Both the position numbers and the translations under genes were made by a program. Below are positions 14,504-33,210 of a stretch of DNA of 64,000 nt, piece after piece. Source of the DNA: Glaciecola nitratireducens FR1064 (GTDB lineage: Bacteria > Pseudomonadota > Gammaproteobacteria > Enterobacterales > Alteromonadaceae); NCBI RefSeq assembly GCF_000226565.1, contig NC_016041.1, forward strand, positions 2,604,001 to 2,668,000. The letters are read 5' to 3'. The notes under the pieces are model-generated. The model ran no database searches and was not told the origin of the DNA. It saw only the letters and a program-made list of their open reading frames with translations. The stretch's first letter is position 1; the number at the start of each line of letters is the position of its first letter.

Positions 14504-15304
14504 TTAACTCAACAACGCCAAAACTTGCCCCTGCTGCTGATTGGCTTGAGCCTGAACGCTTAAGGACGCTTGCCCTTGCACTTGAGCGGCAGCCATGTCG
14601 CTGGTTGCTTGCGCATAGTCTAAGTCCTGAATACGACTTCTAGCCGATTCAGAATTAATGCTCGATTCCGTTAATACTCGTGCTGCACTCGCAAACTGAT
14701 TTTGCGTCGCGCCGAGGTCGCCACGAAAGCCACCAATAGACGCTAAAGACGCGTCAGCGATATCAAGTGCTTGTTGGCGTGATTCTGCATTTGTAACATC
14801 AATACTGAGTAAATCACTGATAGAGTCGGTAACATTATTCGTTTCAACGTCGATGTTATTACCTGAAGAACTGCCAACGAGAAAACTAATGTCTTGTCCA
14901 CCCGACAGCAGTGGCTTGCCGGCAAAGTTGGTTTGCTCCACCGTTAAGCTGATGTTTTCTTGTAGCGCACTTATTTCACTCTGAAGCGCTTGCCGATCCG
15001 AATCGTTTAGCGCGCCGTTACCAGCCTGCACTGTGAGTTCTCGTATGCGATTGGCGTCATCAGTAATATTCGCTAAGCCCGATTCTGCAACTTGAGCAAG
15101 CGATATACCATCATAAGCGTTAGAGATGGCTTGACGACTACCTTCTGTTTGCGACGTTAAACGATCAATTATAAGCTGCGCGGCTGGACCATCTGCTGCG
15201 CTGTTCACTTGTTTACCCGAGGCTAGCTTTTCCATCAAACTGGATTGTTTTTGTTGAACTTGCTGTAACAAGCTACCCGCATTGTTGTTATCAAACTTTA
15301 TCAT
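14504..15304 (-). CDS. divergent flagellin-like protein
   Basis: The 266-residue product has flagellin D0/D1 helices at both ends: the N-terminal part contains LASGKQVNSAADGPAAQLI and the C-terminal part SARSRIQDLDYAQATSDMA. The start IKFDNNNAGSLLQQVQQKQ is unlike the SLFVNTNVSALNAQ-type opening of the four other flagellins in the window, and it has no sizeable central domain. The ATG at 15304 is chosen because GGAGGT sits just upstream; the longer reading would swallow that ribosome site. It is about 30 kb from the main flagellin array, beside flrA, with its own terminator. It may be a minor filament subunit or a cap/junction-like flagellin. Confidence 0.85.
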   Translation of the reverse strand: MIKFDNNNAGSLLQQVQQKQSSLMEKLASGKQVNSAADGPAAQLIIDRLTSQTEGSRQAISNAYDGISLAQVAESGLANITDDANRIRELTVQAGNGALNDSDRQALQSEISALQENISLTVEQTNFAGKPLLSGGQDISFLVGSSSGNNIDVETNNVTDSISDLLSIDVTNAESRQQALDIADASLASIGGFRGDLGATQNQFASAARVLTESSINSESARSRIQDLDYAQATSDMAAAQVQGQASLSVQAQANQQQGQVLALLS

Positions 15305-15540
15305 CACTACCTCCATTGCTGCTTATTAAGAGCATTTGGATCGTTTTTAGCTCTTCCTCTCATTGAGAGACAAAAACGACATATGGCCATCAACTTTATC
15401 GAAGACTACAATGTATATCCAAAATACAGCACTCCGTATCATGGTATCGGCAGTAAATTAAGGATCTTTAATTTTTTTTCAATTTAATTGCATTAATTAT
15501 TAATTAACGGCAAACACTCAAAGATTAATGGAAGCTGATT

Positions 15541-17284: not shown

Positions 17285-18436
17285 TTAGTGCTCAAAGATT
17301 TCAGGATAAACATGCGCTACGTCAGCACGACTTACCGCTAATCTTATCGCAGGCTTAGTGCCTGTCGCCGTTATCCTATGTACTTTGTTCTTGGGCATAA
17401 ATACAAAATCCCCTTGTTTAACCACAGTTTCTTTACCTTCAATTTCCCATATCCATTCGCCAGATATGATATACCACCACTCATTCCAATCAGGATGATA
17501 ATGTTTACGATTGCCTTGCCCAGGAAGTTGAGATATTAGGGTTGCACTATTACTTTCGGTATTCACCAAACGGTGACACCATGACAATTCACTATTTTTG
17601 TTCGCTATCAGATCGGGAATGTGGACTAGAGACAAGTTTTCATGAGCAAAATCCGATTGTTCGATACCGTCTATTTTCAGAATCGAGGGTACATCGGCTT
17701 CACTATGGTGATTTTTTGCTCCCGATTGTCGCTGATAATATTTTGGTTGCTGTGTTGATGCCTGAGATTTGATGTACTGTAACGCAATCTCAGCTAATTT
17801 AAAGTCTTCTTCATTATCAATATCAATGGTGGAAAAGCCCTTCAAGGTGAAATAGCCTGTGTTGCCATCAGGACCATGATAACCGAAACCATTGCTTTGC
17901 ATATTTTGCAAAAAGCTATCTTTATTCCACCCCATCAGCACTGTTGCATAGGAAGAGACTGGCTGCATATCTTGGGAAGAAATATGCGGCTCTTTTGGAC
18001 TGAAATTCACTCCTTTCCCGCCGAACATGCAGGCTATCTGATGGTCAACCGTTGAGACAAGGGTATTATACTTTTGCTCTATCATGGTGCTTACAAAACT
18101 TACAATTTCATTCTCAGTAATAAAGGGCGAAGTTGGTAAAATTTGTATAACAATGTCGGCGCTAACGTTTTTACAAAAATCGAGTAAAAAAGCATCGTTA
18201 TTAGTTTCATCTGTTGCAAATTCAACTGGACGCTGATAAAAACTCGCGCCGTATTCACTCGCAATCTCAGAAAATATGTCATCTTCTGAGTTAATATAAA
18301 CAGCGTCAAACACACCAGAATTAACGGCAGTTTCAACCACGTATGAAATCAAAGGTCTTTCACCTAGTAAACGTAAATTCTTTTTTGGAATACGCTTACT
18401 GCCCATTCTCGCGGGGATCATTGCTACAACTTTCAT
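17285..18436 (-). CDS. acylneuraminate cytidylyltransferase-like enzyme fused to a cupin domain
   Basis: Residues 1-235 form a CMP-sugar synthetase of the NeuA/PseF type, opening with the nucleotide-binding motif IPARMGSKRIPKKN and containing QILPTSPF and DIDNEEDF. Residues about 260-383 are a cupin with motif 1 KHYHPDWNEWWYIISG (HxH and Glu metal ligands) and motif 2 GDFVFMPKNKVHR. The first domain should activate a sugar with CTP; the cupin could be an isomerase, epimerase or sensor on the same sugar. It is last in a tight cassette (9-11 bp after an SDR). It is a second cytidylyltransferase beside PseF at 36517. The ATG at 18436 is preferred over an upstream TTG. Confidence 0.85.
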   Translation of the reverse strand: MKVVAMIPARMGSKRIPKKNLRLLGERPLISYVVETAVNSGVFDAVYINSEDDIFSEIASEYGASFYQRPVEFATDETNNDAFLLDFCKNVSADIVIQILPTSPFITENEIVSFVSTMIEQKYNTLVSTVDHQIACMFGGKGVNFSPKEPHISSQDMQPVSSYATVLMGWNKDSFLQNMQSNGFGYHGPDGNTGYFTLKGFSTIDIDNEEDFKLAEIALQYIKSQASTQQPKYYQRQSGAKNHHSEADVPSILKIDGIEQSDFAHENLSLVHIPDLIANKNSELSWCHRLVNTESNSATLISQLPGQGNRKHYHPDWNEWWYIISGEWIWEIEGKETVVKQGDFVFMPKNKVHRITATGTKPAIRLAVSRADVAHVYPEIFEH

Positions 18437-18447
18437 CAATTAATTAC

Positions 18448-19170
18448 CTATGTACTCGTGAATCCGCCATCAACAATAATGTTTTGAGCGGTAATATACG
18501 TATTGAGATCTGAACATAAAAAAAGCACTACATTGGCTATATCGTCAACACAAGCTAATCGCTTTAATGGAATAGTGCGCGCTATTTCTTTTTGTTTCTC
18601 ATCACTTACCCATCTTTCAATCATCTCGGTGCTCGTTGGCCCTGGAGAAACAGAGTTAACCAAGATGCCATACTCTGCAAGTTCTACAGCAAGTGATCGC
18701 AAAGCCCCAACAAATCCGCTTTTGCTTGAACTGTAGACCACGGAATTAGGTTTTGATACAACAGAAGCTATAGAAGCTATGCCGACAATTTTTCCGTGTT
18801 TTCGACTTTTCATCTGACCGGCTACCGCTGAAAGAATCTTTAGCGGTGAAACTAAATTGACGTCGCAGACAGTTTTTATCGCATCAGCGCTGAGCATGTC
18901 TGCGGGTTCAGGTAAGATTATTCCCGCATTGTGAATAAGGTAATCAAAAGTAAAGTCTTGCTCAATGCACTGGATGAAAGCGTCAACGCTCTCTGCATTG
19001 CTCAAATCCAGAGGCAAAACCGATGGGTCATCTGTGGTCGTTCTCGACGTGCCAACTACATCGCAGCCTGCATTCAATAGTTGATGTTTTACAGCGGCAC
19101 CAATACCTTTCTCACTGCCAATAACCAAAGCGCGTTTATTTGAAAAATCCAAGCGAATATCAGCGCTCAT
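18448..19170 (-). CDS. SDR family oxidoreductase (cassette member 1)
   Basis: A short-chain dehydrogenase of about 240 residues with the nucleotide-binding motif near the start (SEKGIGAAVKHQL, where the usual TGxxxGIG is SEKGIG), an NAG motif (LIHNAGI), catalytic Ser and YSSSKSG in place of the usual YxxxK, and the C-terminal IIVDGGFTS. It overlaps the upstream 2-hydroxyacid dehydrogenase by 11 bp if translated from the ATG at 19170; a GTG at 19179 is possible. The substrate is probably a sugar or cyclitol intermediate of the cassette; the first Gly of the cofactor motif is replaced by Ser, which may affect cofactor binding. Confidence 0.85.
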   Translation of the reverse strand: MSADIRLDFSNKRALVIGSEKGIGAAVKHQLLNAGCDVVGTSRTTTDDPSVLPLDLSNAESVDAFIQCIEQDFTFDYLIHNAGIILPEPADMLSADAIKTVCDVNLVSPLKILSAVAGQMKSRKHGKIVGIASIASVVSKPNSVVYSSSKSGFVGALRSLAVELAEYGILVNSVSPGPTSTEMIERWVSDEKQKEIARTIPLKRLACVDDIANVVLFLCSDLNTYITAQNIIVDGGFTST

Positions 19171-20095
19171 TTGCAGCACCCAGTAGGCTATCGACTAAAT
19201 GAGATATTGCAGAGCGGCCCATCGCTAATGTTGCTTCCGCTGAGTTACCGCCAATGTGCGGCGTACAAACTAAGTTAGGCATGCTTATTAGTTCTTTGTG
19301 CGTTGGTGGTTCCACATCATAGACATCTATTGCTGCGCCATATAGCTGGCCGTTGAGTAAAGCGTCATGCAGGTCTTGCAAATTGACTAGCTCGCCACGT
19401 GCAGTGTTAATAAATATCGGTTTTTTTGTCATTTTATGAAAGGCAGTAGCATCGATAAACTGAACCGTAGAGGTATTCAACGGAGTGTGCAGACTGATAA
19501 TATCAGCTTCTGCATAAATCGTTTCCTTGCCTACTGAAACGACACCATTTTTTTCACAAAACTCATTTATATCAACAACATCATTTGCCAGTACTCTACA
19601 AGCAAAGGGCTTTAGTAAGTGAGTAAGCTCCTGCCCTATATGGCCCATACCAATGATACCAATTGTTTTCCCGTAAAGACTCTGCCCGCCTGACTTATTC
19701 CACTCACCTTTTTTTAGTTGATTAGACGTCGTATATAAATTCCTAATCAGCATTAGCATAAATCCTAAGGCCATTTCAGCAACCGATTGTCTGTTTATGC
19801 CGGCAGTCCATTTTACCGGAATGCCATTTTTCTGGCAGTAGCTTAGATCTATATTATTCAAGCCAACGCCAAATTTTGCGATCACTTTTAGCAAGTTTAC
19901 ATCGTCCAGCACAGGAGCTTGAATCTGTTCCATCGCGACTATAGCACCATCGCAATCGCCCAAAAATTCAATCAGCTCCGATTCGTTTAATAGACGACCA
20001 CTGGTATTAAATCGACAATCTGGGAAGAACGATTGTAATTCGGATTTGAGTGTTTCATTTTTAGCAAATGCCTTTGACGTAACAGCTATTTTCAT
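19160..20095 (-). CDS. D-isomer specific 2-hydroxyacid dehydrogenase (SerA/PGDH-like)
   Basis: The 311 residues show the two-domain NAD-dependent fold: a Rossmann motif GIIGMGHIGQEL at about 145, and the catalytic Arg (NTARGELV), Glu (DVEPP) and His (TPHIGGNS) of the family. All catalytic residues are present. It shares 4 bp with the AroB-like gene and overlaps the next SDR, so it is made as part of a coupled cassette and not as a housekeeping serine enzyme. The likely role is oxidation or reduction of a 2-hydroxy/2-keto acid intermediate; substrate unknown. Confidence 0.85.
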   Translation of the reverse strand: MKIAVTSKAFAKNETLKSELQSFFPDCRFNTSGRLLNESELIEFLGDCDGAIVAMEQIQAPVLDDVNLLKVIAKFGVGLNNIDLSYCQKNGIPVKWTAGINRQSVAEMALGFMLMLIRNLYTTSNQLKKGEWNKSGGQSLYGKTIGIIGMGHIGQELTHLLKPFACRVLANDVVDINEFCEKNGVVSVGKETIYAEADIISLHTPLNTSTVQFIDATAFHKMTKKPIFINTARGELVNLQDLHDALLNGQLYGAAIDVYDVEPPTHKELISMPNLVCTPHIGGNSAEATLAMGRSAISHLVDSLLGAANER

Positions 20096-21159
20096 ACAAA
20101 CCTTAACTCATCAATAATTAACAACATAGCAACTGACACTTCCTGCGGCTTGATATCGTCGGCTTTTATCGCTTCAATCTTGTCGCTACTGGGTATGATC
20201 ATCGTTAAGTCTTTACCAACTCGCTTTTTATCGTTCATCAAGCCTTTGATTATTTCACTTTCGTCAAAATAGGCGGGTTTAAATTCAATAGGCAAGGTCG
20301 GCACAAATAACAAGGCATTTAATCGCGAATAACATGCTCTGGACATTAAGCCTCGACCAAGTGCTACCGCATTCGCGACCATCATACCAACTATCACCGC
20401 AAGACCATGAGGGACTTCATATTGACTCGTCGCTTCCAGCGCATGCCCAAAGCAATGCCCGTAATTGAACAGATTTCGTTTACCTTGGTCGAATTCGTCT
20501 TCTGCGATAAAACTTTGTTTTACCGAAAGTGAGGCTCTAATTGCCTGCATTCGGCTTTCCCGTTTATATAAGTCAGCGACCAATGCCGCTATTTGCTCAA
20601 AATCGGGTTCCCTCCTATCATCTAACAATAGAAATTTGATGACTTCGCCAATCCCGCTGTAATAGTCGCGGTCGTTTAAGGTATCCAGAAAGTCGGGACA
20701 AAGATAAATGATATTGGGTGGATAAAAGCCACCCAATATATTCTTGAATGACTCAAAATTTAACGAGGTTTTACTGCCAACACAGCTATCTGCTTGCGCC
20801 AAAAATGTGGTTGGGACAAAGGTCCAAGGAATGCCTCTATATAGAGTCTGGGCAACAAACCCGGTGACGTCTTGAACAATGCCACCACCGATTGAAATTA
20901 GCTGCATTTTTTTCTTTTCTGGAATAGGCGTCAAAAATCGGTAAACGTCTTGAACATAGTCCAAGGTTTTATTACTTTCAAGCGCATCAATTAGAAAGAC
21001 CCGTTGTTTATCGACATCACGCAATATGTCCGGATAGAGTCTGTTGATGTTGCTATCGCAGACAAATACGGCGTTACTTTTGCTTTTGAGTTCCTGAAAA
21101 AAATCCAGACTTTCAACAAATTTAACCTGATAGTCGTGTATGTTTGATTTGATAATCAT
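20092..21159 (-). CDS. 3-dehydroquinate synthase-like sugar phosphate cyclase
   Basis: The 355 residues belong to the AroB/sugar-phosphate cyclase superfamily, which uses NAD and a divalent metal to close a carbocycle from a sugar phosphate. The NAD motif is SIGGGIVQD, where AroB usually has GGGVVGD. The three metal ligands are present: Glu in SGIGEVIKF, His in FNYGHCFGHALE and His in VPHGLAV. The phosphate/substrate segment reads ADSCVGSKTSLNF, where AroB has SSVGGKTG. Family and context point to a specialised cyclase (of the general kind that makes valiolone, inosose or aminoDHQ) and not to shikimate synthesis. One-base overlap with the SDR gene at 21159. Confidence 0.85.
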   Translation of the reverse strand: MIIKSNIHDYQVKFVESLDFFQELKSKSNAVFVCDSNINRLYPDILRDVDKQRVFLIDALESNKTLDYVQDVYRFLTPIPEKKKMQLISIGGGIVQDVTGFVAQTLYRGIPWTFVPTTFLAQADSCVGSKTSLNFESFKNILGGFYPPNIIYLCPDFLDTLNDRDYYSGIGEVIKFLLLDDRREPDFEQIAALVADLYKRESRMQAIRASLSVKQSFIAEDEFDQGKRNLFNYGHCFGHALEATSQYEVPHGLAVIVGMMVANAVALGRGLMSRACYSRLNALLFVPTLPIEFKPAYFDESEIIKGLMNDKKRVGKDLTMIIPSSDKIEAIKADDIKPQEVSVAMLLIIDELRFV

Positions 21160-21809
21160 TAACTTGTGAACCCTCCATCTATTACTATAGATTGACCTGT
21201 AAGATAAGAATTTGATGGGTCGATAAGGAAAGCCACCGTGCGTGCTATTTCTTCGGGCTTAGCTAAACGCTGACAGGGAATATCCATAAGAATAGCGGCA
21301 AGTTCTTCGCTTGATAGCGATTGTTTAGTTAATTCAGTTTCGGTAAATCCAGGACAAACCGTATTTATCATCACATTATCCGCAGCGAATTCTCTTGCAA
21401 AGCCCTTGGTAAGACCTATCAAGCCGAACTTAGTCCCACTATAAAGTGCTCTCTTTGCTTTTGAGCGAACTCCCCAAATTGAGCTTATATTCACTACTCT
21501 ACCAAATTTGCGCTGCGCCATTTTAGGCAGTAATAACTGCATTAATTGAAGAGGCGCGGCATAGTTTACTTGATTGATGAGATTCATATCGTCGACTGAG
21601 ACTTCTGCTAGTGGCTTAATAATATTGATACCAGCATTGTTTATTAAGGCATCAACTCTCCCCAGCTTCGAACAGTACTCAACGATACTCTCCGGTGAGC
21701 TCAAATCGAGTTCAGAACGAGATGGCGAGAGCACCGTGTGCTCTGTCTCGAGTTTTGTTTTAATAGCAGCGCCAATACCACGGCTAGCGCCAGTTAATAA
21801 AACAATCAT
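21159..21809 (-). CDS. SDR family oxidoreductase (cassette member 2)
   Basis: A 216-residue short-chain dehydrogenase with cofactor motif LTGASRGIGAAI, NAG motif LINNAGI, Ser in NISSIWG and the catalytic YSGTKFG (YxxxK), ending IVIDGGFTS. It is short but complete. It differs from the other cassette SDR (18448) in having all canonical residues. The TAATG junction with the AroB-like gene suggests coupled translation and a shared pathway. Confidence 0.9.
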   Translation of the reverse strand: MIVLLTGASRGIGAAIKTKLETEHTVLSPSRSELDLSSPESIVEYCSKLGRVDALINNAGINIIKPLAEVSVDDMNLINQVNYAAPLQLMQLLLPKMAQRKFGRVVNISSIWGVRSKAKRALYSGTKFGLIGLTKGFAREFAADNVMINTVCPGFTETELTKQSLSSEELAAILMDIPCQRLAKPEEIARTVAFLIDPSNSYLTGQSIVIDGGFTS

Positions 21810-21812
21810 AAA

Positions 21813-22829
21813 TTATTTTCCATAGAAGCCACTCACCGAATATATTTCTTCAATTAAGGAGAGGACTTCCATCGCATCGTCACTGCTTCCGTTTGACACT
21901 TTTTGCTTTTCTGTGATCGCCTTAACAAATTCCTCTAGCTCGAGTTTCCAGCTGTCATCATTTTCAAACCAAATAGTCTGCTCGGCAGGTTTTCCCATTG
22001 CAAAAGTGATGTCTTCGAACTCCCTTTTGCCTGTAACGAGTTTTTCAGGTGCGTAACTGCGTGATTCAGACAAAATACCGTCTAAATTTATAAAACCGTT
22101 TTCAAAACACATTTCAAGTAGAAATTTATGCTTCCATTGAGTCGCACTCGAATGCAGTGAAGCAATGACGCCACCTGATTGTAAAGTCACAAATGCATTG
22201 TCTTCAACTTCAATATCCCAAAAGCTATTCGATAACTGGCTTGCAACGACGTTGAATGAAAGACCACTAAGATGATGAAAAAGATCTAACATGTGAATGC
22301 CTTGATCCATCAATATTCCACCACCAGAATAATTTCGAAAGTTACGCCAATTAGTATGGTAGTCGATGCTGCCTGCCTTTCCATATACTCCCCGCATCCA
22401 GAGTAAATTACCAAGCTCTTTGCTTTGAATGAGTTCTCTCGCTTTGATTACACTGTAATGTAAGCGATGGTTAAAACCATATTTCAAGACGCCTGTTGAG
22501 GCTTTTTCGGCTGCGATAACGAAAGACAGTTCAGCGCAGGTTTTCGCAGGCGGTTTCTCACAGAAAACATGCATCCCTTGCGATAATGCTTTTATGGCGT
22601 ATTCCGCGGCAACATTATTAAAGGCACATATAAATACTGCATCAATGCCTGAGCTCAGCAGTTCGTCAATAGATTTGCTGAGTGTCATTCCACTCGGTAT
22701 TTCAGCAGTTAAATCTGAGTTAGTCTCAAACACTGAACACAATTGAGTATGTGGATTTCGCAATATTTCGCGAGCACGAATTTGTCCCATCTTACCAAAA
22801 CCGGCAATCCCACAACGTATTACCTTCAT
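21813..22829 (-). CDS. Gfo/Idh/MocA family oxidoreductase
   Basis: The 338-residue protein has the N-terminal Rossmann domain (GIAGFGKMGQIRA), the catalytic EKPPAKT motif (family EKP) and the C-terminal alpha/beta domain with GGGILMDQGIHMLDL carrying the catalytic Asp/His pair. This family oxidises or reduces secondary hydroxyls of nucleotide sugars and cyclitols, for example inositol dehydrogenase. It is packed 3 bp after the SIS gene and 3 bp before the SDR, within the candidate cyclitol/sugar cassette. Substrate is unknown. Confidence 0.9.
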   Translation of the reverse strand: MKVIRCGIAGFGKMGQIRAREILRNPHTQLCSVFETNSDLTAEIPSGMTLSKSIDELLSSGIDAVFICAFNNVAAEYAIKALSQGMHVFCEKPPAKTCAELSFVIAAEKASTGVLKYGFNHRLHYSVIKARELIQSKELGNLLWMRGVYGKAGSIDYHTNWRNFRNYSGGGILMDQGIHMLDLFHHLSGLSFNVVASQLSNSFWDIEVEDNAFVTLQSGGVIASLHSSATQWKHKFLLEMCFENGFINLDGILSESRSYAPEKLVTGKREFEDITFAMGKPAEQTIWFENDDSWKLELEEFVKAITEKQKVSNGSSDDAMEVLSLIEEIYSVSGFYGK

Positions 22830-22832
22830 GCC

Positions 22833-23423
22833 CTAGCCTGCATCCGCAAGTTCAGAACTTGACTTTAATTGTTGATAGTATGAAAAGATCACGTGATCGA
22901 CCATCATATGTAAATCTTCGACGACGCCATAATCACCCTTTTCCGTCGCGACGTGGAACGTGTGATCTGCTTTTTGTTTTAATTGACCACCATCAAAACC
23001 AGTCAGACCGACAACCGTGACACCCAATGAATTTGCATAATCTACCGCCTTAACTATGTTAGGCGAGTTGCCGCTGCAAGATATGCCAATCAGTAGGTCT
23101 TTCTTTTTTAAGCGTCCTTCTAGTTGGAGACTGAAAATATTTTCGTAGCCGGTGTCATTTGCGATGGCAGTGCAAACCGCGACGTTATCGCCTAAACTCT
23201 CAACATCAAACTGCCGAATTCCTCTTAATTTAAGACCAACAGCCAAGTCGTTTGCCATATGCGAAGCCGTTGCTGCACTGCCGCCGTTACCCATAACAAA
23301 GATACGACCTCCTCTCTCATGGCACTTTTCTAATGCGCCAATAATGTCTACAATTTCCTGCGGATTAATGCGTGACAATACCTGCTTAATGTTTTCAATG
23401 TAACTTTGCACAAAGCTCAACAT
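22833..23423 (-). CDS. SIS-domain sugar isomerase (phosphoheptose isomerase-like)
   Basis: The 196 residues match the GmhA-type SIS family, which interconverts sedoheptulose 7-phosphate and a manno-heptose 7-phosphate. The phosphate loop is MGNGGSAATASH, the serine loop GISCSGNSPNIV, and the C-terminal metal segment VVEDLHMMVDH. Two metal-site positions differ from E. coli GmhA (Asp where Glu is usual after the first His, Glu where Gln is usual), a pattern seen in paralogues from sugar clusters. It is the first gene of the cassette that ends at 17285, with 162 bp separating it from the gene upstream. Confidence 0.85.
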   Translation of the reverse strand: MLSFVQSYIENIKQVLSRINPQEIVDIIGALEKCHERGGRIFVMGNGGSAATASHMANDLAVGLKLRGIRQFDVESLGDNVAVCTAIANDTGYENIFSLQLEGRLKKKDLLIGISCSGNSPNIVKAVDYANSLGVTVVGLTGFDGGQLKQKADHTFHVATEKGDYGVVEDLHMMVDHVIFSYYQQLKSSSELADAG

Positions 23424-23585: not shown

Positions 23586-25502
23586 TTACTTTTTCACGCA
23601 AATCATCATTTGAGTTGCTTGATGGTAATTTGTCACGCGATGATCAATGACCTTAAAGAAAGTACTGACGTAGTCAGCAAATTCAGAAAATGACCATTCC
23701 CTTTGATGCGCAAAATTACGCGGCGGCCCAGCTTGGAATACTGATGTTTTCGGGTATACCAAGTCTCGGTCTGGAGTAGATAACACTAAATATTTAAAGT
23801 CTTGGGCATTCAAAAATATCAATAAATCATCAGGGTCAACCAGATGCTCGATAATATCAGAACAAATCACTACATCTGCACTGAATACTCGTTCTGAAGT
23901 AAAATCCGAGACTTTCCAGCGTTTATCTGGGTACTTTTGCATCAACAAATCAACGTTAACAGGCAACTCCAAGCCAAGCGTGTTGTATTGACTAAAATAT
24001 TTCATGAATTTGTAGCCCGAACCGGTGCCTACATCCACGATATTTGAGAAACTATTGGTGGTCATTAATCCAAGCGCATGCAGGTAAACTTCCAATTGCC
24101 ATTCATCTTCGCAGTCACTATCGTCGTAGTGATGGTACTTATTTCTTGAAATATATTGTGCAGGAAGAGAGAAATGCTTATCCGGTGAAAATGCAATATG
24201 CTCCCTCTCTTCCAATAAGTTTTTGATTCTGTAGGCAGCTAAATCTGAGGGCGGCACGGTAGACGGCAAATTACATTTTCGAAGTAAAAACTCTTGTGCG
24301 CCAGATCTAACATCACTATATGTTTGCGTGATTTTTGATATTGCTGACGCTAATTCTGTTACGTTTGTAACAGTTTCAAAAGCACCTTCAGGTTCATTAT
24401 ATAAAGGTACTTTTTCGCCATGGGGATTAAAGTAAATGACGGGTTTACCCAACACTAAGGCTTCAAGTAAGACCGTACTGTAACGAGTAATAACAAGCGA
24501 TGACTCACGAATGGTCTGATAGACAGTTTTTGAACTGACGACCTTATTACTGAAATCACCATTATCAGCCGGATGCTGAGAAATAATATAATCCACCTCT
24601 GCTTTCTGACAAGCGTTCAAGACTTGTTCAACCCACTCTTCGCGAACCTCTTCAAACGAACCATAGGTAAAGTTTACGTTAATCATTACCGTCGTCTTGG
24701 CGGGATATTGCACCGTTTCATTATACAATGAGTGTAATTTAGGAAGACCCACTACCGTACATTTCTCTGATTTATGCGATAACGCAGTTAAATCATCCGT
24801 GCCCATTGTTAACACATATTCAACGGTCTCATAAGCCTTGCGATCATAGGAATAATCGGTATCGTTGAAATCTTCGATGCCATCAACCACTCCAATTGTT
24901 AACATGCCCTTATCCTTTTCCGCCTGGATAAATGAGCGACCAAAGCTTGGTTCCCAATCAATTGATGCGACAATACACTGACGCTTTATATTATGCAGTC
25001 CATCTCGTCTAATTCGCGGTATGTCTGCATTCTCAGTGTATCCTTTAGTGATATCTGAATCCGGTCCTCCGCCAATATCTATAATCGCAGAGCTTATGCC
25101 AAATTTGTTTAAGGACCGACTGATCAAGGACATATCGGAAACGTTCGAACGATTGAACGGTAGCAGAAGAACATCAAATTCATCAGAGTTTCTAAGCAAC
25201 GATTCAAAATTTTCAAGCTCAATAAAACTTAATGACGCAGTATCAAAAACATATTTTAAGCCGCTCAAATTTGCACCAATTTCTCTCCAATAATTGGGGC
25301 TATTTATAATGATGCAGTCATACTTTGATGCTTCAGCAGCCTTCACAAAATCGGAGGGCTTTTTATAGCTGTCGTAAAATCCGACAACATTTGCACCGAT
25401 TGCGCTTAGTTCTTTTTGCATCCGCCTTGTAAGGTCATTATCTGGCGCCAACACAATTGACTTTCCAACAAAGGCGTCAATTGCTTTGAACTGATCACTC
25501 AT
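23586..25502 (-). CDS. GT-B-like glycosyl/phosphotransferase fused to a SAM methyltransferase
   Basis: The 638-residue protein has two parts. Residues about 10-420 look like a GT-B transferase of the CDP-glycerol/capsule type, with the donor-site signature ITRYSTVLLEALVLGKPVI at about 338-356. Residues about 455-638 are a class I methyltransferase: motif I VDVGTGSGYKF at about 489, and VVICSDIIEHLVDPDDL. A plausible job is transfer of a sugar to flagellin or to a sugar acceptor, then methyl capping. It sits alone between 162 bp and 215 bp spacers but on the operon strand. The exact donor cannot be read from the sequence. Confidence 0.75.
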   Translation of the reverse strand: MSDQFKAIDAFVGKSIVLAPDNDLTRRMQKELSAIGANVVGFYDSYKKPSDFVKAAEASKYDCIIINSPNYWREIGANLSGLKYVFDTASLSFIELENFESLLRNSDEFDVLLLPFNRSNVSDMSLISRSLNKFGISSAIIDIGGGPDSDITKGYTENADIPRIRRDGLHNIKRQCIVASIDWEPSFGRSFIQAEKDKGMLTIGVVDGIEDFNDTDYSYDRKAYETVEYVLTMGTDDLTALSHKSEKCTVVGLPKLHSLYNETVQYPAKTTVMINVNFTYGSFEEVREEWVEQVLNACQKAEVDYIISQHPADNGDFSNKVVSSKTVYQTIRESSLVITRYSTVLLEALVLGKPVIYFNPHGEKVPLYNEPEGAFETVTNVTELASAISKITQTYSDVRSGAQEFLLRKCNLPSTVPPSDLAAYRIKNLLEEREHIAFSPDKHFSLPAQYISRNKYHHYDDSDCEDEWQLEVYLHALGLMTTNSFSNIVDVGTGSGYKFMKYFSQYNTLGLELPVNVDLLMQKYPDKRWKVSDFTSERVFSADVVICSDIIEHLVDPDDLLIFLNAQDFKYLVLSTPDRDLVYPKTSVFQAGPPRNFAHQREWSFSEFADYVSTFFKVIDHRVTNYHQATQMMICVKK

Positions 25503-25717: not shown

Positions 25718-26623
25718 TCATTCATCAAACACCTGCGTATTAGTAAGATCTTGTAAACTCCAATCGGGATTCGGTGTTTCCCAATCCCCGTAGTGCTGTT
25801 GCAGGTAATCAGCTGTCCTTGCAGGAATAGGCCAACTGTAGTTGCAGCATAGATAAGATTGGATTGTTGCGTTTAATTCGGCCGGCATTCGAATGCCTCG
25901 AGAAGCAAGGCTGTAGTCACTATATTTATCATCAACATACTTAACGAAGAAATCAACGGCAGGTAATTCGGATGCATTCTCGCACACAATTTTAAACGCA
26001 CGAATAGCATTCTCAGGCACATTACCGAAAGAACCGACAGTAAATAACGTTTGAGCATGCCACTTAGCGTGCGTTTTTAACCAAAGCTGTTGCTCCAGTT
26101 GTGGCAGTGCTTTTTGCACAACTGGAGCGAAACTTGCGTCAATGGCGATGTCTAAATCATCGTCCCAAGGGATTAATTGTTTATCCCGATATAAGCCCAG
26201 CAGTGTGCCCGCATCAATATGATGCTTGACCGAAAGTGCTTTTAAAAATTCACAACAACAAGCAAGAACGTCAAGGGCTCTAGCCGTAGACTTGTGTTCA
26301 TGTTCGAATCGATTTGCAGCCAATAGACGAGAAGGTAAAGGTTTTATTTTGCCCGCTGATAAGAATCGAAGTGATAACAACTGATCCCTAATTTGTTCGA
26401 AAAACTCACTGGCAATAAATAAGGTAGCATGGGAATGTTGACTTAATATCGATGCAGGGAATATCGAGATACCGTCTATATTGGATTGATATTTTGCTTT
26501 GTCATTGTCAATAAAACCCAGTATGCGGTAATTCAATTTGAGGTTTTCGTACGCATTTTGACCCGCAGTGCCTGCTCCAAATATAAATGCATCTTCTTGC
26601 TGTGTGTTGACGTTATTTTTCAT
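25718..26623 (-). CDS. Rossmann-like domain plus LicD family transferase
   Basis: The 301 residues begin with a nucleotide-sugar-binding-like Rossmann segment (FIFGAGTAGQNAYENL, then LGFIDNDKAKYQ) of the kind preceding PglD-type enzymes. From about residue 125 they continue as a LicD domain with HIDAGTLLGLYRD and PWDDDLDIAI, the nucleotidyltransferase-like catalytic signature. LicD proteins transfer phosphocholine or other phospho-groups to glycans. Here it probably decorates the flagellar glycan with a phospho-substituent. It overlaps the GT2 gene by 11 bp. Confidence 0.8.
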   Translation of the reverse strand: MKNNVNTQQEDAFIFGAGTAGQNAYENLKLNYRILGFIDNDKAKYQSNIDGISIFPASILSQHSHATLFIASEFFEQIRDQLLSLRFLSAGKIKPLPSRLLAANRFEHEHKSTARALDVLACCCEFLKALSVKHHIDAGTLLGLYRDKQLIPWDDDLDIAIDASFAPVVQKALPQLEQQLWLKTHAKWHAQTLFTVGSFGNVPENAIRAFKIVCENASELPAVDFFVKYVDDKYSDYSLASRGIRMPAELNATIQSYLCCNYSWPIPARTADYLQQHYGDWETPNPDWSLQDLTNTQVFDE

Positions 26624-27494
26624 AGCGTTCCCATCGGCGCATTAACTCTGTTTCAAAGTTTGGATATTGCTCTGAGTATCGTTGCAACATCACCTTAAAC
26701 GCTTCTTCCAAAATTGTTTTATCTGATGCTGATTGCATGGGTTCATCGTAAACAAAAGCCATATATGCTTGAATTTGAGCTTCTGTCAATTCTTTGGCAT
26801 GCTGCCTTAAGAATACTGCAAATCGTTTTTTATAATGAGCAATACGATAATTAGCATGTTGATAACAGATTGAATTAGCATGCTGACGATAGCAGTATAG
26901 AAATTGCTGCACACTGTAAAGAGAGAAGGTTGGGTCTTGTGTTAAGCGCAGAAAGAAATCTAATTCCTCCAGATGTGTGTGACTCGGAATAAAAGAATGT
27001 TTTTCAAAAACAAGACGATCTGCTAACAAAGAAGCAATTGCTTGGGGCGCTCTACCAAAAAGCATTAGCATTCGGATGTCAGAGTCCAACTCTCGATAAT
27101 GCCAATTTGCTTGCTTTGCACCAAAAAGTGATACCCAGCTGGCGACCACACCCGGCCTATCCAAGCGCTCTAATGCCGCTAGTTGCTTCTCTAACCTTTC
27201 AGGGTGGCTTATGTCATCCGCATCCATTCTCGCAATAATGGGTGATGTAGACCACTCGGTTAGTTCGTTCAATGTTGCTACCAAACCTTGGTTTTGCCGA
27301 GTTCTAATGCATATTCTATTGTCTTTAACTTGCCATTCTCTTAGTTTATCCAACGATTGATCAGTAGAGCCATCATCAATAGCCAATAGCTCCCAATCAG
27401 CATAAGTTTGAGCCTGCAGTGATGCGATAGCTTCATCAATATATTTTTCTGCGTTATATACAGGCATTAGTATCTGTATGGCTTGAATGGACAT
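26613..27494 (-). CDS. family 2 glycosyltransferase
   Basis: A 293-residue GT-A fold inverting transferase: N-terminal ILMPVYNAEKYIDEAI, the DDGSTDQS nucleotide-binding site and the metal-binding ARMDADDISHPERL motif at about 88-101. There is no membrane segment, so it is cytosolic and suited to building a glycan on flagellin before export. It lies 24 bp after the luxC-like gene and overlaps the LicD gene, which implies the three act on the same structure. Donor and acceptor are unknown. Confidence 0.9.
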   Translation of the reverse strand: MSIQAIQILMPVYNAEKYIDEAIASLQAQTYADWELLAIDDGSTDQSLDKLREWQVKDNRICIRTRQNQGLVATLNELTEWSTSPIIARMDADDISHPERLEKQLAALERLDRPGVVASWVSLFGAKQANWHYRELDSDIRMLMLFGRAPQAIASLLADRLVFEKHSFIPSHTHLEELDFFLRLTQDPTFSLYSVQQFLYCYRQHANSICYQHANYRIAHYKKRFAVFLRQHAKELTEAQIQAYMAFVYDEPMQSASDKTILEEAFKVMLQRYSEQYPNFETELMRRWERYEK

Positions 27495-27518
27495 TAAAAA
27501 CTCCCAACGTATTTGATA

Positions 27519-28844
27519 TCAATTGACCGTCATTTGCCTCATTTGGCAAAGCTCGAGTAAAAGTTGATAGCCATCCCATGTAAAGCTGAAGTCAAGCGCT
27601 TGCCCTAGTGGCTGGATTCGATAATTTTGATGGTATAGTGAATCAGATGCACACTTCGCTACATCGTCGGCAGCGAGCCCTTGAATGGCGATTGTTTGCA
27701 ATTTCTCAGGCACACAATTAGCTAATTCCATTAGCACCTGCTGCACTGAGTCGCAGTGCCGAACGTAAAAAAAACCGTTACCTGCATGCCGTTCAATGGA
27801 GCTTGCTGTTAACTTAGGTAAATTGACTGCACTGATACTTCTCAGTTGTATAAGTGCATTTTCAGCCTCGCATTCTTGCGCTATCGCCAAGTTCTGAAGT
27901 GCCACGAGGTGTTCATTCACTCTGCTGATTTGATCCCAAGGCTCGGATGATTGTTGTGCAAGCTCATTGATATGAGCAAACAATATTTTTAACTTTGCCT
28001 GAATCAGTGTCCTCTCGGTCTTGTTCTCATCAATAACGAACAGTACACGTGGTGACGAACATGCTTGCTGTTGAAACGCTTCAGTGTCCCGCCATAACTT
28101 TTGAGCGACCAGTAAGGGTTCAGAGCACAGTTCGGATGCTGCTAACATTGCCACAGAATATTTATCGGCAAATGCAAAATCTCGACATTGTGGTTTACTA
28201 GGGTAAGCCTTAATTTGCTCAACGCTAGCGTCACCGCCCCACATCATTCTGGCATCCGCTATCTGGCAAAGATGTGCGGTCATCGCTGACGTTTTGTCGT
28301 AGCTTATGAAAATATTCCGCCGCGCAATTTCCGCAAATTCAGCTTGTTGAAAGAGCTCATCAAGTAAGCGCAACAATACTATTTTGCTATCAGAGTCTTG
28401 ACTAGCAACTCTCACAATATTTTTGTTACCCATTAATAATGACGCCACCCAACTATACACAAACATGGTGTCGACATTCGCTGGAGTAAAATGCACAACG
28501 CAGCCCAAAGGCTGGTAATCATCGTGATATTGTTGAGCACTTTGAACAGTGTGAAATGATTCGAAAATAGGCGCACTACTTGCGATTTTTTGTTGCAAAT
28601 TGGAGCGCCGCAGCCAAAACCCTAAAGCAACGAGTTCAGATGAATTTCTAAACTCTGTGCCCTTTAATAATCGTGAAGACAAGGCTTGGATGAAGCTCAG
28701 CGTTATGGGGGCGAATAATTCTTCATTAGTTTGTGCAGCAAACTCCTCTAACCAGAGCAATGGTGCCACATTTTCATGTTTGCCATTAGCCAAACTAGTA
28801 ATCGAGGACTTGTCAAAATACGTTAAAAAAGTAGTGTTATCCAT
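27519..28844 (-). CDS. LuxC-like acyl-CoA/acyl-enzyme reductase
   Basis: The 441-residue product belongs to the LuxC family of fatty acyl reductases, an aldehyde-dehydrogenase relative that makes aldehydes from acyl thioesters with NADPH. Recognisable parts are VVHFTPANVDTMFVYSWV, GNKNIVRVAS and the nucleophile region QQACSSPRVLFV with its Cys. The ATG at 28844 overlaps the upstream gene by 8 bp and is better than the longer frame, which would run 31 codons into that gene. There are no luxA/luxB genes nearby, so the role is probably to make or modify an acyl group on the flagellar sugar. Confidence 0.85.
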   Translation of the reverse strand: MDNTTFLTYFDKSSITSLANGKHENVAPLLWLEEFAAQTNEELFAPITLSFIQALSSRLLKGTEFRNSSELVALGFWLRRSNLQQKIASSAPIFESFHTVQSAQQYHDDYQPLGCVVHFTPANVDTMFVYSWVASLLMGNKNIVRVASQDSDSKIVLLRLLDELFQQAEFAEIARRNIFISYDKTSAMTAHLCQIADARMMWGGDASVEQIKAYPSKPQCRDFAFADKYSVAMLAASELCSEPLLVAQKLWRDTEAFQQQACSSPRVLFVIDENKTERTLIQAKLKILFAHINELAQQSSEPWDQISRVNEHLVALQNLAIAQECEAENALIQLRSISAVNLPKLTASSIERHAGNGFFYVRHCDSVQQVLMELANCVPEKLQTIAIQGLAADDVAKCASDSLYHQNYRIQPLGQALDFSFTWDGYQLLLELCQMRQMTVN

Positions 28845-31470
28845 GAGTATCGCTGCACCCCCTAACTTCAACTTTTGGGAGCCGACCGATAACCTCAAAA
28901 TACTTTCCTTTACGCAAGCACGGGCAATTATCTTCACCTAAAATACGACCTAAGTCTTCAGTTAAAATAGTGTGCCCCGGATAGCTGGTAGGCAATGCTG
29001 ATAATACTTGAATTAAGCCAATATCGCCTATGCTTGCCACTGCCAAATCGTGTGGGCGTCGAATAATGACATCGGCCATATTAGGTGCGTGCAAATGCCC
29101 ATGTTCGCATTCAATAAAAATACTGCCAACCTGCTCAGCCATGCCATAAAAGTTATGTACCTGACTGCCTTGAACAACTTCATCGCAGGCCATCTTAAAA
29201 GTGGCATTGTCTACTCGTTTTGATTCTAGCTTTTTCCAGCCACCGCTATGAATAACAAACGCTTTTTGTGCTTTAAAGCTTTTCGCCGAATCTCGAGCAG
29301 GGCTGATTAAATACTCCCATAGCATAAAGGTAAAACCGAAAATCAATATAGGACCGCTGCCATGCTCATCAAAGAACGCGTCTATTGCTTCCCAATTAGG
29401 TGACATATCATCCCGCAATGCATACACATGTTTACGCCCAAAGAATGATAACCCTTGAATACCGGCTGTGCGCGCACTAAAACCACTTCGCCCTTTTGCA
29501 ACAGCTTCAGAGTCAATAATTAGCATCGGCAAGCGCTGTTTCCCGATGACTGACTGCAATATAGTCACCAAGGTTTTGGACTGTCGAGCACTGGTCTCTT
29601 TGTCCAATAAAATTCGCGCTGGCGCTTGCCCTGTCGTACCCGAAGAACTTAACACTTTGAATATTTCCTGCGCTGAGATACTCGACAACTCATGCTGCTT
29701 AAATAATCGAACCGCGATAAAAGGAAGGGCTTCTATCGTGGAAAACGAATAACCGGCCTGCGCGGTAATGCGCTTGTATTCAGGGCAGTTTGCTACATGC
29801 AACTCATGCAGGCTATTAAGCACGGGAACGAGCAGATTTTGTTTCTGTTTTTTATCAAGAGCAAAAGCATCCGCTTGCATCAGCAATTCAAAGTTTTGCT
29901 TGTACTCATCTAAAGTTACGCCCATAAACTTTGCTTTCAAGCTCCGATAGTCGGTTTTACCATTAATTGATAAAGGTATCGACCCAATACTTATCACCTT
30001 TAACGCACTTGGATGGATACCCGTAGTACTTTGTAACGATTTCTTTAAATCCTGCTGTAATTTAGTAATCGCGCTCTGAACATTGAGGTTTTCGCTGCTA
30101 TCCGCAATAGCATCAAGTTCAAGGACGATGATGATTTTCTTATCATTCCCGATTACTGCAACCTTACTCACTGCAGGATAAAGTTTGCCATCGTTGTTAA
30201 CTGGTTTTTCCTGATCTGACGAAATATTTTCAAGCAAGGTGGTTTGTGTTACCGAGGTGACTTTTTGTATACTTCGTTGCACTAGCTCCTCAAGTTGATC
30301 AAGACTAACGCGTTCACCAAATAGTTTAACTATGCGCTTTATTCTGCCGGTGATAAAAAAGTCACCGTCATCGTCTTTATAACCGATATCTCCCGTTGCA
30401 AGCGCAACGATTGGCTCAAAATTGACAAGTTCCGAGCGCTGCTCAGCGTAAGCTAACATCACGTTTCGACCTTGGAAAACGAGTTGACCTTGTTGCTGAC
30501 TATGCGTAATTTCATTGCCCAACTCATCTATGAGCATCAAATGACAGTCAGGAATAGCTTGACCGATCGTATTTGGCTTTTGCAGCAACTTATTAGGGCT
30601 CACAAAGCTCATTCTTGCTGTCGCCTCCGTTTGCCCATACATCACATAAAATTCGATATTGTTGCGTTTAGCAAACTCGGCCAATGTAACTATATTGCTC
30701 TCACTAAGCTTGCCTCCAGCCTGCGTAAAATAGCGCAAATGAGGCATATTCTTGTGTGTAAACTTTAGCCTAATGAGCATGTCATAACTATGCGGAACAC
30801 CCGCAAAACTGGTTACCTGATGCCGTTCAAAACAATCCCAAAACTCTCGTTGCATGATACTAAGCTCGGTCAGCACAATGGATGCACCACAGGCTAGGTG
30901 GGTATTGATAACCGACAGTCCATAGGAGTACAGGAAAGGCAATGTGGTGATGGTGACATCTGAGGCTTGTACCGGCAAATAGGCACAAATAGACTGGCAG
31001 TTGGCGATTAAATTATCATATGACAAAACCACTTGTTTGCTTTCGCCGGTTGAGCCGGATGTGCTTAACAATACGGCGACATCATCTCGAATACTTGGCT
31101 GCTCAAGTTCGCTGTTAACAAAAGACGGTATTATCTGTTCATTTTGTAGAATTAATTCAGGCTTAAACTGAGTTAACAAATCGCTTTTTTCAGTAGCTTT
31201 ATCATCGGTATTTGTAAGAAAGATAATAGCTTGCTTTAGTTGCAGCGCAGCGAGATAGTTAATCATCGTGCTGATGTTATTTTTGGCTACAATAGCAAGC
31301 AAATTTTTACCTGTATTTTCACCATCTTTGGCCGCAACAAGAATATTCCTTAACTGAATTTTCTTTTCTTCGACCTTCGAACCGAGCTGCGCGTAAGTGA
31401 GAACCGTGTCGCCTTCAATACAAGCAACATTATCTTTAAATCGTTCAAGCTGTTCGAAGAAAATAGTCAT
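28837..31470 (-). CDS. acyl-activating enzyme fused to a LuxE-like acyl-protein synthetase
   Basis: The 877-residue protein fuses two adenylate-forming modules. Residues 1-510 are an AMP-dependent ligase with STSGSTGESK at 136-145, YGQTEA at 278-283 and TGD at 359-361. Residues about 545-877 are LuxE-like, with SSSGTTGQ at 608-615 and the family C-terminus GKYFEVIGRLPKVEVRGCSD. The first module probably activates an acid and loads the adjacent carrier protein (32233); the second passes the acyl group to the LuxC-like partner. Adjacent to FabG-like and luxC-like genes with 5 bp and minus 8 bp spacing. Confidence 0.85.
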   Translation of the reverse strand: MTIFFEQLERFKDNVACIEGDTVLTYAQLGSKVEEKKIQLRNILVAAKDGENTGKNLLAIVAKNNISTMINYLAALQLKQAIIFLTNTDDKATEKSDLLTQFKPELILQNEQIIPSFVNSELEQPSIRDDVAVLLSTSGSTGESKQVVLSYDNLIANCQSICAYLPVQASDVTITTLPFLYSYGLSVINTHLACGASIVLTELSIMQREFWDCFERHQVTSFAGVPHSYDMLIRLKFTHKNMPHLRYFTQAGGKLSESNIVTLAEFAKRNNIEFYVMYGQTEATARMSFVSPNKLLQKPNTIGQAIPDCHLMLIDELGNEITHSQQQGQLVFQGRNVMLAYAEQRSELVNFEPIVALATGDIGYKDDDGDFFITGRIKRIVKLFGERVSLDQLEELVQRSIQKVTSVTQTTLLENISSDQEKPVNNDGKLYPAVSKVAVIGNDKKIIIVLELDAIADSSENLNVQSAITKLQQDLKKSLQSTTGIHPSALKVISIGSIPLSINGKTDYRSLKAKFMGVTLDEYKQNFELLMQADAFALDKKQKQNLLVPVLNSLHELHVANCPEYKRITAQAGYSFSTIEALPFIAVRLFKQHELSSISAQEIFKVLSSSGTTGQAPARILLDKETSARQSKTLVTILQSVIGKQRLPMLIIDSEAVAKGRSGFSARTAGIQGLSFFGRKHVYALRDDMSPNWEAIDAFFDEHGSGPILIFGFTFMLWEYLISPARDSAKSFKAQKAFVIHSGGWKKLESKRVDNATFKMACDEVVQGSQVHNFYGMAEQVGSIFIECEHGHLHAPNMADVIIRRPHDLAVASIGDIGLIQVLSALPTSYPGHTILTEDLGRILGEDNCPCLRKGKYFEVIGRLPKVEVRGCSDTHG

Positions 31471-31475
31471 TATTG

Positions 31476-32249: not shown

Positions 32250-32484
32250 ATTTGCTCATGATTTTTTTCGCTTGCGCGACAGAACTCATATCAATGATAT
32301 CGTCAGTGTCTAACATAAGGTCAAACTGGTCTTCAAGTTCTGCAATAAGGATCATATGTGCCGTTGAATCCCATTCAGAGATTTCGTTATAAGTTAACGA
32401 ATCAGTTACTTGATCCGCTTCGATATTCAGTGCAGTAACGAAGGACTGCACTAGCTTTTCTGTATTATTCAATGTCACTTCCAA
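32233..32484 (-). CDS. acyl carrier protein
   Basis: The 83-residue protein is acidic and helical, with the phosphopantetheine attachment site SEWDSTAHMILI at Ser40. The Thr after the Ser replaces the usual Leu or Val, marking it as a specialised carrier and not the fatty-acid synthase ACP. It is the first gene of the acyl module, 56 bp after the PseH-like gene, and overlaps the FabG-like gene. The partners are the ligase/LuxE fusion and the LuxC-like reductase. Confidence 0.9.
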   Translation of the reverse strand: MEVTLNNTEKLVQSFVTALNIEADQVTDSLTYNEISEWDSTAHMILIAELEDQFDLMLDTDDIIDMSSVAQAKKIMSKYDLSF

Positions 32485-32539
32485 CCTTCTTGGCTTAACT
32501 AATTACATTCACTTTATTGTTAACACAATGCCATTTTGT

Positions 32540-33160: not shown

Positions 33161-33210
33161 AGAAAAACCCAATCACGTTTAACTTATTGGTAAGCTTAAA
33201 CATATTCTTC

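Follow-up and report, generated by a model that had tools for sequence, protein, structure and literature searches.

A seven-gene cassette with an AroB relative in the flagellin region of Glaciecola nitratireducens FR1064: a candidate pathway for an unusual activated sugar acid

The cassette and its conservation

The stretch of DNA analysed here, 64,000 nucleotides of the Glaciecola nitratireducens FR1064 genome (contig NC_016041.1, positions 2,604,001 to 2,668,000; hereafter the window, whose own numbering is used below), carries a cassette of seven minus-strand genes that looks like a second sugar pathway within a pseudaminate flagellin region. The seven open reading frames (ORFs) fill positions 17285-23423 exactly, and neighbours overlap by 1, 4 or 20 bases or sit 3, 3 or 8 bases apart, while Pfam matches back each domain assignment; the tightly packed or overlapping genes described in an earlier note on this DNA are thus borne out. 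As that note also stated, no phosphoenolpyruvate (PEP)-condensing synthase of the NeuB family was found by Pfam among the seven genes, and a PseI synthase at 34353-35432 is part of the neighbouring pse set. The GC content of the cassette (0.416) is nearly equal to that of the window (0.425). The seven genes are:

22833-23423, minus strand: SIS-domain sugar-phosphate isomerase, GmhA-related (PF13580/PF01380)
21813-22829, minus strand: Gfo/Idh/MocA dehydrogenase (PF01408, PF22725)
21159-21809, minus strand: short-chain dehydrogenase SDR2, which usually accompanies TIGR04425 (PF13561)
20092-21159, minus strand: putative AroB-related phospholyase of family TIGR04425 (446.7 bits), with the dehydroquinate synthase Pfam domain
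19160-20095, minus strand: D-2-hydroxyacid dehydrogenase, phosphoglycerate-dehydrogenase-like (PF02826/PF00389)
18448-19179, minus strand: second short-chain dehydrogenase, SDR1 (PF13561), in the same position in loci L027 and L139
17285-18439, minus strand: fusion of an N-terminal CMP-sugar (cytidine monophosphate sugar) cytidylyltransferase of the PseF/NeuA/KdsB family (PF02348) and a C-terminal metal-type cupin (PF07883)

All seven genes recur in the same order in Alteromonas arenosi (L027) and in genome G668 (L139; 46-67% identity), and the order is partly kept in L029, L030 and L031. The grouping therefore exceeds chance, and a chance association of neighbours was dropped as an explanation. 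The cytidylyltransferase-cupin fusion is also present in L027, in L031 and, judged by length and match (380 residues, 64% identity), in L139, and the cupin is encoded separately in L029 and L030.

The AroB relative and its neighbours

The central gene encodes a relative of the 3-dehydroquinate (DHQ) synthase AroB. Its product exceeds the 400-bit cut-off of TIGR04425, an NCBIfam hypoth_equivalog family named 'AroB-related putative sugar phosphate phospholyase (cyclizing)', and stays under the cut-off of the AroB family TIGR01357 (259.8 against 305 bits). The pathway had been called undescribed, which has to be narrowed: the key protein already has a place in a hypothetical NCBI family, while the function of that family is unproven. 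The genome carries its true aroB elsewhere (G000:C1:519818), and the window protein is 32-37% identical to the AroB proteins of relatives. In a tree of 104 rows, 19 AroB rows (100/98) and 82 TIGR04425 rows (100/99) form separate supported groups, so that the tree check against true AroB proposed in the earlier note sets the window gene apart from the AroB clade. Two rows that we label EboD-like and one that we label EEVS-like (after 2-epi-5-epi-valiolone synthase) lie outside both groups on long branches, and their placement is unsure. By the same labels of ours, EboD-like cyclases occur in a congener (G001) and in a member of the order (G054), and an EEVS-like one in G024, the three loci being L107, L108 and L109; other sugar phosphate cyclase branches are present near the lineage of the window.

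Relatives were sought in the genome collection with a five-sequence alignment, and the best 80 of 211 were used. The typed set comprises 77 loci, four more (L023-L026) and the window, giving 82; L093, L101 and L106, in which no cyclase ORF was called, and L137-L139 are in no count, and L004 was left out as a duplicate of L023. Neighbours were counted by profile searches within four same-strand genes. The seeds of the HMGL-like family were chosen by length, with Pfam run on the L078 protein alone, to which the others are 36-63% identical; the one in L099 is a 144-residue fragment.

At this distance, a gene of the SDR2 type is found in 70 of the 82 loci. A potential source of 2-keto sugar acids is encoded nearby as a 2-hydroxyacid dehydrogenase in 22 loci, as an HpcH/HpaI protein in 33, as an HMGL-like protein in 7 and as a NeuB-like protein in 6, with none in 14; thus, exactly one source family is present in 68 of the 82 loci, and two or more in none (0/82). 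Of the 56 loci flanked by four genes on either side, 51 have exactly one source, and sources account for 68 of 497 near same-strand neighbours against 7 of 445 far ones. Three of these families build 2-keto-3-deoxy acids from pyruvate or PEP, and 2-hydroxyacid dehydrogenases interconvert 2-hydroxy and 2-keto acids; the shared output of the four families is a 2-keto sugar acid.

Two gene sets recur, and 12 of the 82 loci belong to neither. Set A consists of 2-hydroxyacid dehydrogenase, Gfo/Idh, SIS and SDR genes and, at times, a strong cytidylyltransferase, while set B consists of glucose-1-phosphate cytidylyltransferase, CDP-glucose (cytidine diphosphate glucose) 4,6-dehydratase, RfbH, an HpcH/HpaI aldolase, an acetolactate-synthase-like thiamine diphosphate (ThDP) enzyme and an SDR of the same kind. 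All three CDP-sugar genes of set B are above cut-off in L050. In several set-B loci without HpcH/HpaI, an HMGL-like gene (L078) or a NeuB-family gene (L036, L059, L062) takes its place; the HMGL-like protein of L078 is nearest to 4-hydroxy-2-oxovalerate aldolase, under the cut-off. As a separate observation, this protein (L078 4798-6399) and its relatives in L060, L104, L065, L057, L063 and L091 are 533-542 residues long, and in L078 the match to a known family stops after the first 260 residues, leaving the C-terminal half without one. Of the 22 dehydrogenase loci, 19 have a Gfo/Idh gene nearby and 10 have a strong cytidylyltransferase within three genes; for the cytidylyltransferase, the loci with other sources give 4 of 46.

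On the best tree, the source changes at least 10 times among four states, and dehydrogenase versus the rest changes 4 times, with three independent pairs on starred branches; in these pairs, the presence of Gfo/Idh follows that of the dehydrogenase in 2.8 of 3 on average and the presence of SIS in 1.1, while the ThDP enzyme stands on the opposite side in 1.9. The window cyclase belongs to a group of 12 rows (100/98), the others being five set-A, four set-B and two untyped rows. Among these set-B rows, L033 has the aldolase, the ThDP enzyme and the three CDP-dideoxyhexose genes, and L035 has the aldolase and the ThDP enzyme, while no ThDP enzyme was seen in the DNA examined for L032 and L034 (13 kb for L034). 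L034, from the metagenome-assembled genome (MAG) of a Cycloclasticus symbiont, encodes aldolase, SDR2, cyclase and cytidylyltransferase (1457 onward) and is a hybrid of sets A and B, as expected if a cytidine triphosphate (CTP)-using enzyme acts on the keto-acid product.

Seventeen active-site positions of DHQ synthase, for which we take the Aspergillus numbering and the residue roles as given, were read from the alignment, with the 19 AroB rows as comparison. The window protein matches 19 of 19 AroB rows at 17 of 17 positions, and the positions are kept by every set-A (25/25) and every set-B (45/45) protein, save for the K197 position and, in one case, a gap that covers the two C-terminal lysines. 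The K197 position is histidine in 7 of the 25 set-A cyclases, a possible difference in substrate or mechanism. The equivalents of K250 and R264, presumably the carboxylate ligands of DHQ synthase, are retained in all 70 typed members (70/70), which have N at 268 as well. In the alignments, ValA (4p53), 5tpr and the EEVS-like L108 have M at 250 and D or A at 268, while R264 is a poor separator, as ValA also has R. That an active-site residue fingerprint tells sedoheptulose-type cyclases apart is established, according to the part of the source available (PMC4426668). Since TIGR04425 members keep the DHQ-synthase residues, unlike ValA, 5tpr and the EEVS-like protein, the family looks built for a carboxylate substrate resembling 3-deoxy-D-arabino-heptulosonate 7-phosphate (DAHP) rather than for sedoheptulose 7-phosphate.

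A predicted pathway and its alternatives

We propose, with a rough probability of 0.42, that the cassette yields a CMP-activated 2-ulosonic acid without PEP by open-chain chemistry. Taken alone, the idea that the TIGR04425 protein uses a 2-keto-acid phosphate as its substrate appears fairly probable. All reactions, as well as the carbon number, the product and the target, are what we infer from gene content and family relationships. The SIS protein would convert sedoheptulose 7-phosphate, or another ketose phosphate like it, to an aldose phosphate. Its best PDB relatives are phosphoheptose isomerases, and the label 'GmhA-like' given earlier holds as a family name but not as an equivalog, the score being under the GmhA cut-off (111.9 against 209.45 bits); another protein of the genome (G000:C1:811778) scores 209.4-209.6 bits, right at this cut-off. 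The Gfo/Idh dehydrogenase would oxidise C1 of the aldose phosphate to give a phospho-aldonate. Subsequently, the 2-hydroxyacid dehydrogenase, whose best PDB relatives are phosphoglycerate dehydrogenases and which passes an Arg/Glu/His motif test, would oxidise C2 to give 2-keto-heptonate 7-phosphate, the 3-hydroxy analogue of DAHP. The TIGR04425 protein might then perform the first half of the DHQ-synthase reaction, with transient oxidation of C5 by NAD, loss of the C7 phosphate and re-reduction, and most likely would release an open-chain 7-deoxy-2,6-diketo acid with no ring closed. SDR2 would reduce the C6 ketone left by phosphate elimination, and SDR1 might be involved in tailoring.

The cytidylyltransferase is predicted to form CMP-7-deoxy-hept-2-ulosonate, which would be transferred to the flagellar glycan, attachment to flagellin being suggested by gene position only. 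Enzymes of the NeuA/PseF type activate free ulosonic acids, so that a loss of phosphate upstream fits. The best PDB relatives of this domain are NeuA/CMP-NeuAc synthetases, and it retains the GSKR and DID motifs, while scoring under the PseF equivalog cut-off (99.6 against 205.7 bits); the PseF of the neighbouring set (36517-37221) scores 330 bits. Because serine replaces the arginines of the nonulosonate R-x-Q-D/E motif, pseudaminate is probably not its substrate. The fused cupin, a putative anomerase or tautomerase, retains the complete H-x-H...E...H set, and its fold is predicted with fair confidence (mean predicted local distance difference test score, pLDDT, 80) but is unspecific; a fold search returned many generic cupins, including KdgF and phosphomannose isomerases, with no specific assignment. 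Of the 22 dehydrogenase loci, 4 encode DUF386 and 5 others a cupin, never together. The DUF386-family protein YhcH is an N-acetylneuraminate anomerase that opens the ring of its substrate, according to the part of the source available (PMC8141875), an activity in keeping with an ulosonic acid product, and since DUF386 stands in for the cupin in four loci, a similar role is suggested for the cupin.

An open-chain 2-keto acid is preferred because the YerE-like ThDP enzyme in related loci (L033, L035) would need an uncyclised donor. In the accessible portions of two papers, caryophyllose is given as a 3,6-dideoxy-4-C-(1,3,4,5-tetrahydroxyhexyl)-hexose with a six-carbon branch (PMC5706390) and is connected with a YerE-like enzyme (PMC12247030). 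By analogy, this branch might be a decarboxylated 3,7-dideoxy-heptulosonate, that is, an aldolase product from which phosphate was eliminated and in which the ketone was reduced. This derivation is stated in no paper found, and the portions of the Mycobacterium marinum papers available make no mention of a TIGR04425-type gene. Carried over to the window, the caryophyllose-type scheme leads to an open-chain 7-deoxy-heptulosonate; the product is thus probably open-chain and 7-deoxy and less likely carbocyclic. More generally, TIGR04425 and its SDR might form a 'terminal deoxygenation' module that turns CH2-O-phosphate into CH3 on the 2-keto sugar acids of bacterial surface glycans, in which an AroB descendant eliminates phosphate without ring closure. 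Fed by an aldolase or a NeuB-like enzyme, it would lead to branched sugars of the caryophyllose kind, and fed by SIS, Gfo/Idh and 2-hydroxyacid dehydrogenase, to a PEP-independent CMP-7-deoxy-heptulosonic acid on flagellin. This generalization is tentative and, on balance, rather doubtful.

Several observations weigh against the open-chain CMP-ulosonate pathway. No assayed TIGR04425 enzyme was found in the literature, and DHQ synthase closes its ring with an equally conserved pocket, so that residues cannot tell chain from ring. At the metal and catalytic positions of the SIS protein aligned to phosphoheptose isomerases, whose roles we assume, H, E to D, Q to E and H are found, and the catalytic E is therefore replaced by D. 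The strict motif test is failed by 8 of 24 2-hydroxyacid dehydrogenases, although the one in the window passes. The window-type cytidylyltransferases lack the arginines of the nonulosonate motif, which leaves room for a substrate other than a typical ulosonic acid. Moreover, a SIS gene accompanies 15 of the 22 dehydrogenase loci and so is not constant, and 10 of them have a strong cytidylyltransferase close by. Sources are lacking in the 14 loci mentioned above, several of which are on short contigs, and also in 5 of the 56 well-flanked loci. The dehydrogenase link amounts to three to four independent switches, with which a sign test is unable to reach significance, and the Fisher p-values, which count related loci as independent, are descriptive.

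Two alternatives retain a keto-acid route. A different keto-acid route, with another carbon number, step order or direction of the 2-hydroxyacid dehydrogenase (for instance a hexulosonate, or reduction of a later intermediate), would still give a CMP-activated acidic sugar, and the 7 of 22 dehydrogenase loci without SIS nearby and the cytidylyltransferase motif unlike the nonulosonate type speak for it. The DHQ-synthase mechanism, however, works on a pyranose with an exocyclic CH2-OP, which hexulosonate 6-phosphate is unable to form, and we consider this route unlikely, if worth serious attention. Unlikely to nearly the same degree is a carbocyclic acid, for which the TIGR04425 protein would close 2-keto-heptonate 7-phosphate to a hydroxy-dehydroquinate, followed by a quinate-like cyclitol acid attached to CMP. 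The 17 of 17 retained positions and the word 'cyclizing' in the family name agree with it, as does a tertiary C1 hydroxyl beside the carboxylate, similar to the anomeric centre of an ulosonic acid; being an isomer of the open-chain product, it would also have an equal mass (both C7H12O7, residue mass 190.05). On the other side, the adjacent ThDP enzyme of related loci would require an open 2-keto acid, and a CMP-linked carbocycle would presumably be without the oxocarbenium chemistry of CMP-sugar transfer.

The scheme of the earlier note, with direct closure of a heptulose phosphate to a valiolone-like cyclitol followed by tailoring and CMP activation, could draw on the kinship of the SIS protein with GmhA, a sedoheptulose 7-phosphate enzyme, and on a sequence family that takes in the cyclases 4p53 (ValA) and 5tpr. 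Nevertheless, its ring closure is unsupported: K, N and H are kept where sedoheptulose 7-phosphate cyclases have M, D/A and others, and relatives of the enzyme adjoin enzymes able to yield 2-keto sugar acids, which would have to remain uncyclised in loci with a ThDP enzyme next to them. In addition, the EEVS-like and EboD-like rows fall outside on the tree (with weak placement), and no role is left for the 2-hydroxyacid dehydrogenase. This scheme, dropped on the residues at the K250 and N268 positions, is highly improbable. The same complete active site and the identity to the AroB of relatives given above might also suggest a spare shikimate-pathway 3-dehydroquinate synthase among unrelated neighbours, but this was dropped as largely refuted by the true aroB elsewhere in the genome and the separate clades of the tree, the operon being conserved in other species as well, and we give it almost no credence. 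The evidence shifts the likely chemistry from closure of a heptulose phosphate to a cyclitol towards a 2-keto sugar acid that loses its phosphate. The gene set forms a coherent pathway, conserved in order in L027 and L139, and its key enzyme family is known solely as hypothetical. The earlier expectation of an unusual product that is activated with CMP and made with no PEP synthase is supported.

Flagellin region and comparison with known systems

Two further genes next to the cassette are relevant to the predicted product:

14504-15316, minus strand: flagellin gene, downstream of the cassette (flagellin families)
23586-25502, minus strand: 638-residue glycosyltransferase-like protein with a methyltransferase domain, upstream of the cassette, candidate transferase (weak TIGR04396; PF13489 barely above cut-off)

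Downstream of the cassette lie a 390-residue ORF, flagellin and a sigma-54 regulator, which is labelled fleQ by its place. In the neighbouring pse set, PseB, PseC, PseF and PseI score above their cut-offs and a Maf-domain protein is encoded in the same region, while PseG and PseH were not identified there by family. The 638-residue protein accompanies the cassette in L027 (66% identical) and L030 (57%, C-terminal half), with no match to it in L139, and its predicted structure (pLDDT 39) was not used. Another protein family, of about 634 residues, recurs in 10 of the 25 set-A loci, and is possibly a transferase of the product; its member in L083 (12680-14578) has no Pfam match. Between the pse genes and the cassette, positions 25718-33172 hold LicD, GT2, LuxC, SDR and GNAT genes and an 877-residue protein of acyl-ligase-like appearance. 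Most of this block adjoins flagellin in congener L127, some relatives lie beside the G668 cassette, and it is perhaps involved in acyl decoration of the flagellar glycan.

TIGR04425 proteins above the cut-off are found in 2 of 60 relatives, 4 of 398 phylum genomes and 4 of 295 family genomes, the window genome counted each time; the family members are this genome, G010, G510, which holds the A. arenosi sequence, and G668. Five congeners (G007, G008, G009, G010, G012) have fleQ and pse genes with no cassette between them, the stretch in G010 ending early at a contig end. Since few family genomes carry the cassette and the same region of these congeners is without it, it is a sporadic addition. 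In A. arenosi, the cassette is flanked by the Maf/638-residue pair and by flagellin with a relative of the window sigma-54 regulator; a NeuB-family gene of this species is at G445:C6:391791. With flagellin adjoining the cassette in both species and the congeners' region lacking it, the placement in a flagellin glycosylation region is supported, and the seven-gene set, which the earlier note suggested seeking next to flagellin or lipopolysaccharide genes of other genomes, lies beside flagellin in A. arenosi; no flagellin was found within the 20 kb read around the G668 cassette. The G010 variant sits in an apparent polysaccharide locus, with its cyclase on another tree branch, and the 261-residue protein beside it (L023 10669-11454) had its hydratase label withdrawn, with no Pfam or NCBIfam match at the thresholds used. 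TIGR04425 relatives together with set-B genes also occur in MAGs assigned to Micrarchaeota (L052) and to Gracilibacteria and Wirthbacteria (L032, L046), the binning of which is unchecked.

In a literature search of partial coverage, which is not proof of absence, no account of TIGR04425 or of an AroB-related sugar phosphate phospholyase, no link between a dehydroquinate synthase and yersiniose and no heptulosonic acid with flagellin and CMP were found. To our knowledge, which does not come from an exhaustive search, no earlier CMP-ulosonic acid route takes its keto acid from oxidation instead of PEP condensation, and the pathway, if true, would be the first. A hypothetical family with members across many phyla, mostly in MAGs, would gain a testable substrate class, for which the known metabolite DAHP is a ready surrogate, and one module would join two different surface-sugar pathways.

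The window protein is a member of TIGR04425 by the curated cut-off, and to this hypothetical family a 2-keto acid phosphate substrate class and an SDR partner are now proposed, with ring closure doubted. It shares its sequence family and the 17 checked active-site positions with AroB, but belongs to a separate clade found in surface-glycan operons and is proposed not to carry the reaction through to ring closure. TIGR04425 members also do not show the M250 and D/A268 of the sedoheptulose 7-phosphate cyclases (EEVS and desmethyl-4-deoxygadusol synthase, DDGS). In vitamin B6 synthesis, Epd and PdxB convert an aldose phosphate to an aldonate phosphate and then, by a 2-hydroxyacid dehydrogenase, to a 2-keto acid phosphate; the same series of steps is proposed for the cassette, with Gfo/Idh as the C1 oxidase and another fate of the product. 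EboD of the ebo operon was put by its authors close to enzymes that use sedoheptulose 7-phosphate, in the part of the paper available (PMC5133447), whereas the pocket of TIGR04425 resembles that of DHQ synthase and its partners differ. As for YerE-type branched sugars (yersiniose, erwiniose, caryophyllose), relatives of the cyclase and SDR2 lie beside CDP-dideoxyhexose genes, an aldolase and a ThDP enzyme, and TIGR04425 may take part in caryophyllose synthesis; the window, in contrast, has none of these beside its cyclase, with no ThDP enzyme or CDP-dideoxyhexose genes within nine genes of it, and would activate its product with CTP via a NeuA/PseF-type enzyme. With pseudaminic and other nonulosonic acid pathways, the cassette shares CMP activation by the same superfamily, the flagellin context and the Maf and pse genes of the region, but it has no PEP condensation, and its 2-keto acid would arise by oxidation of an aldonate.

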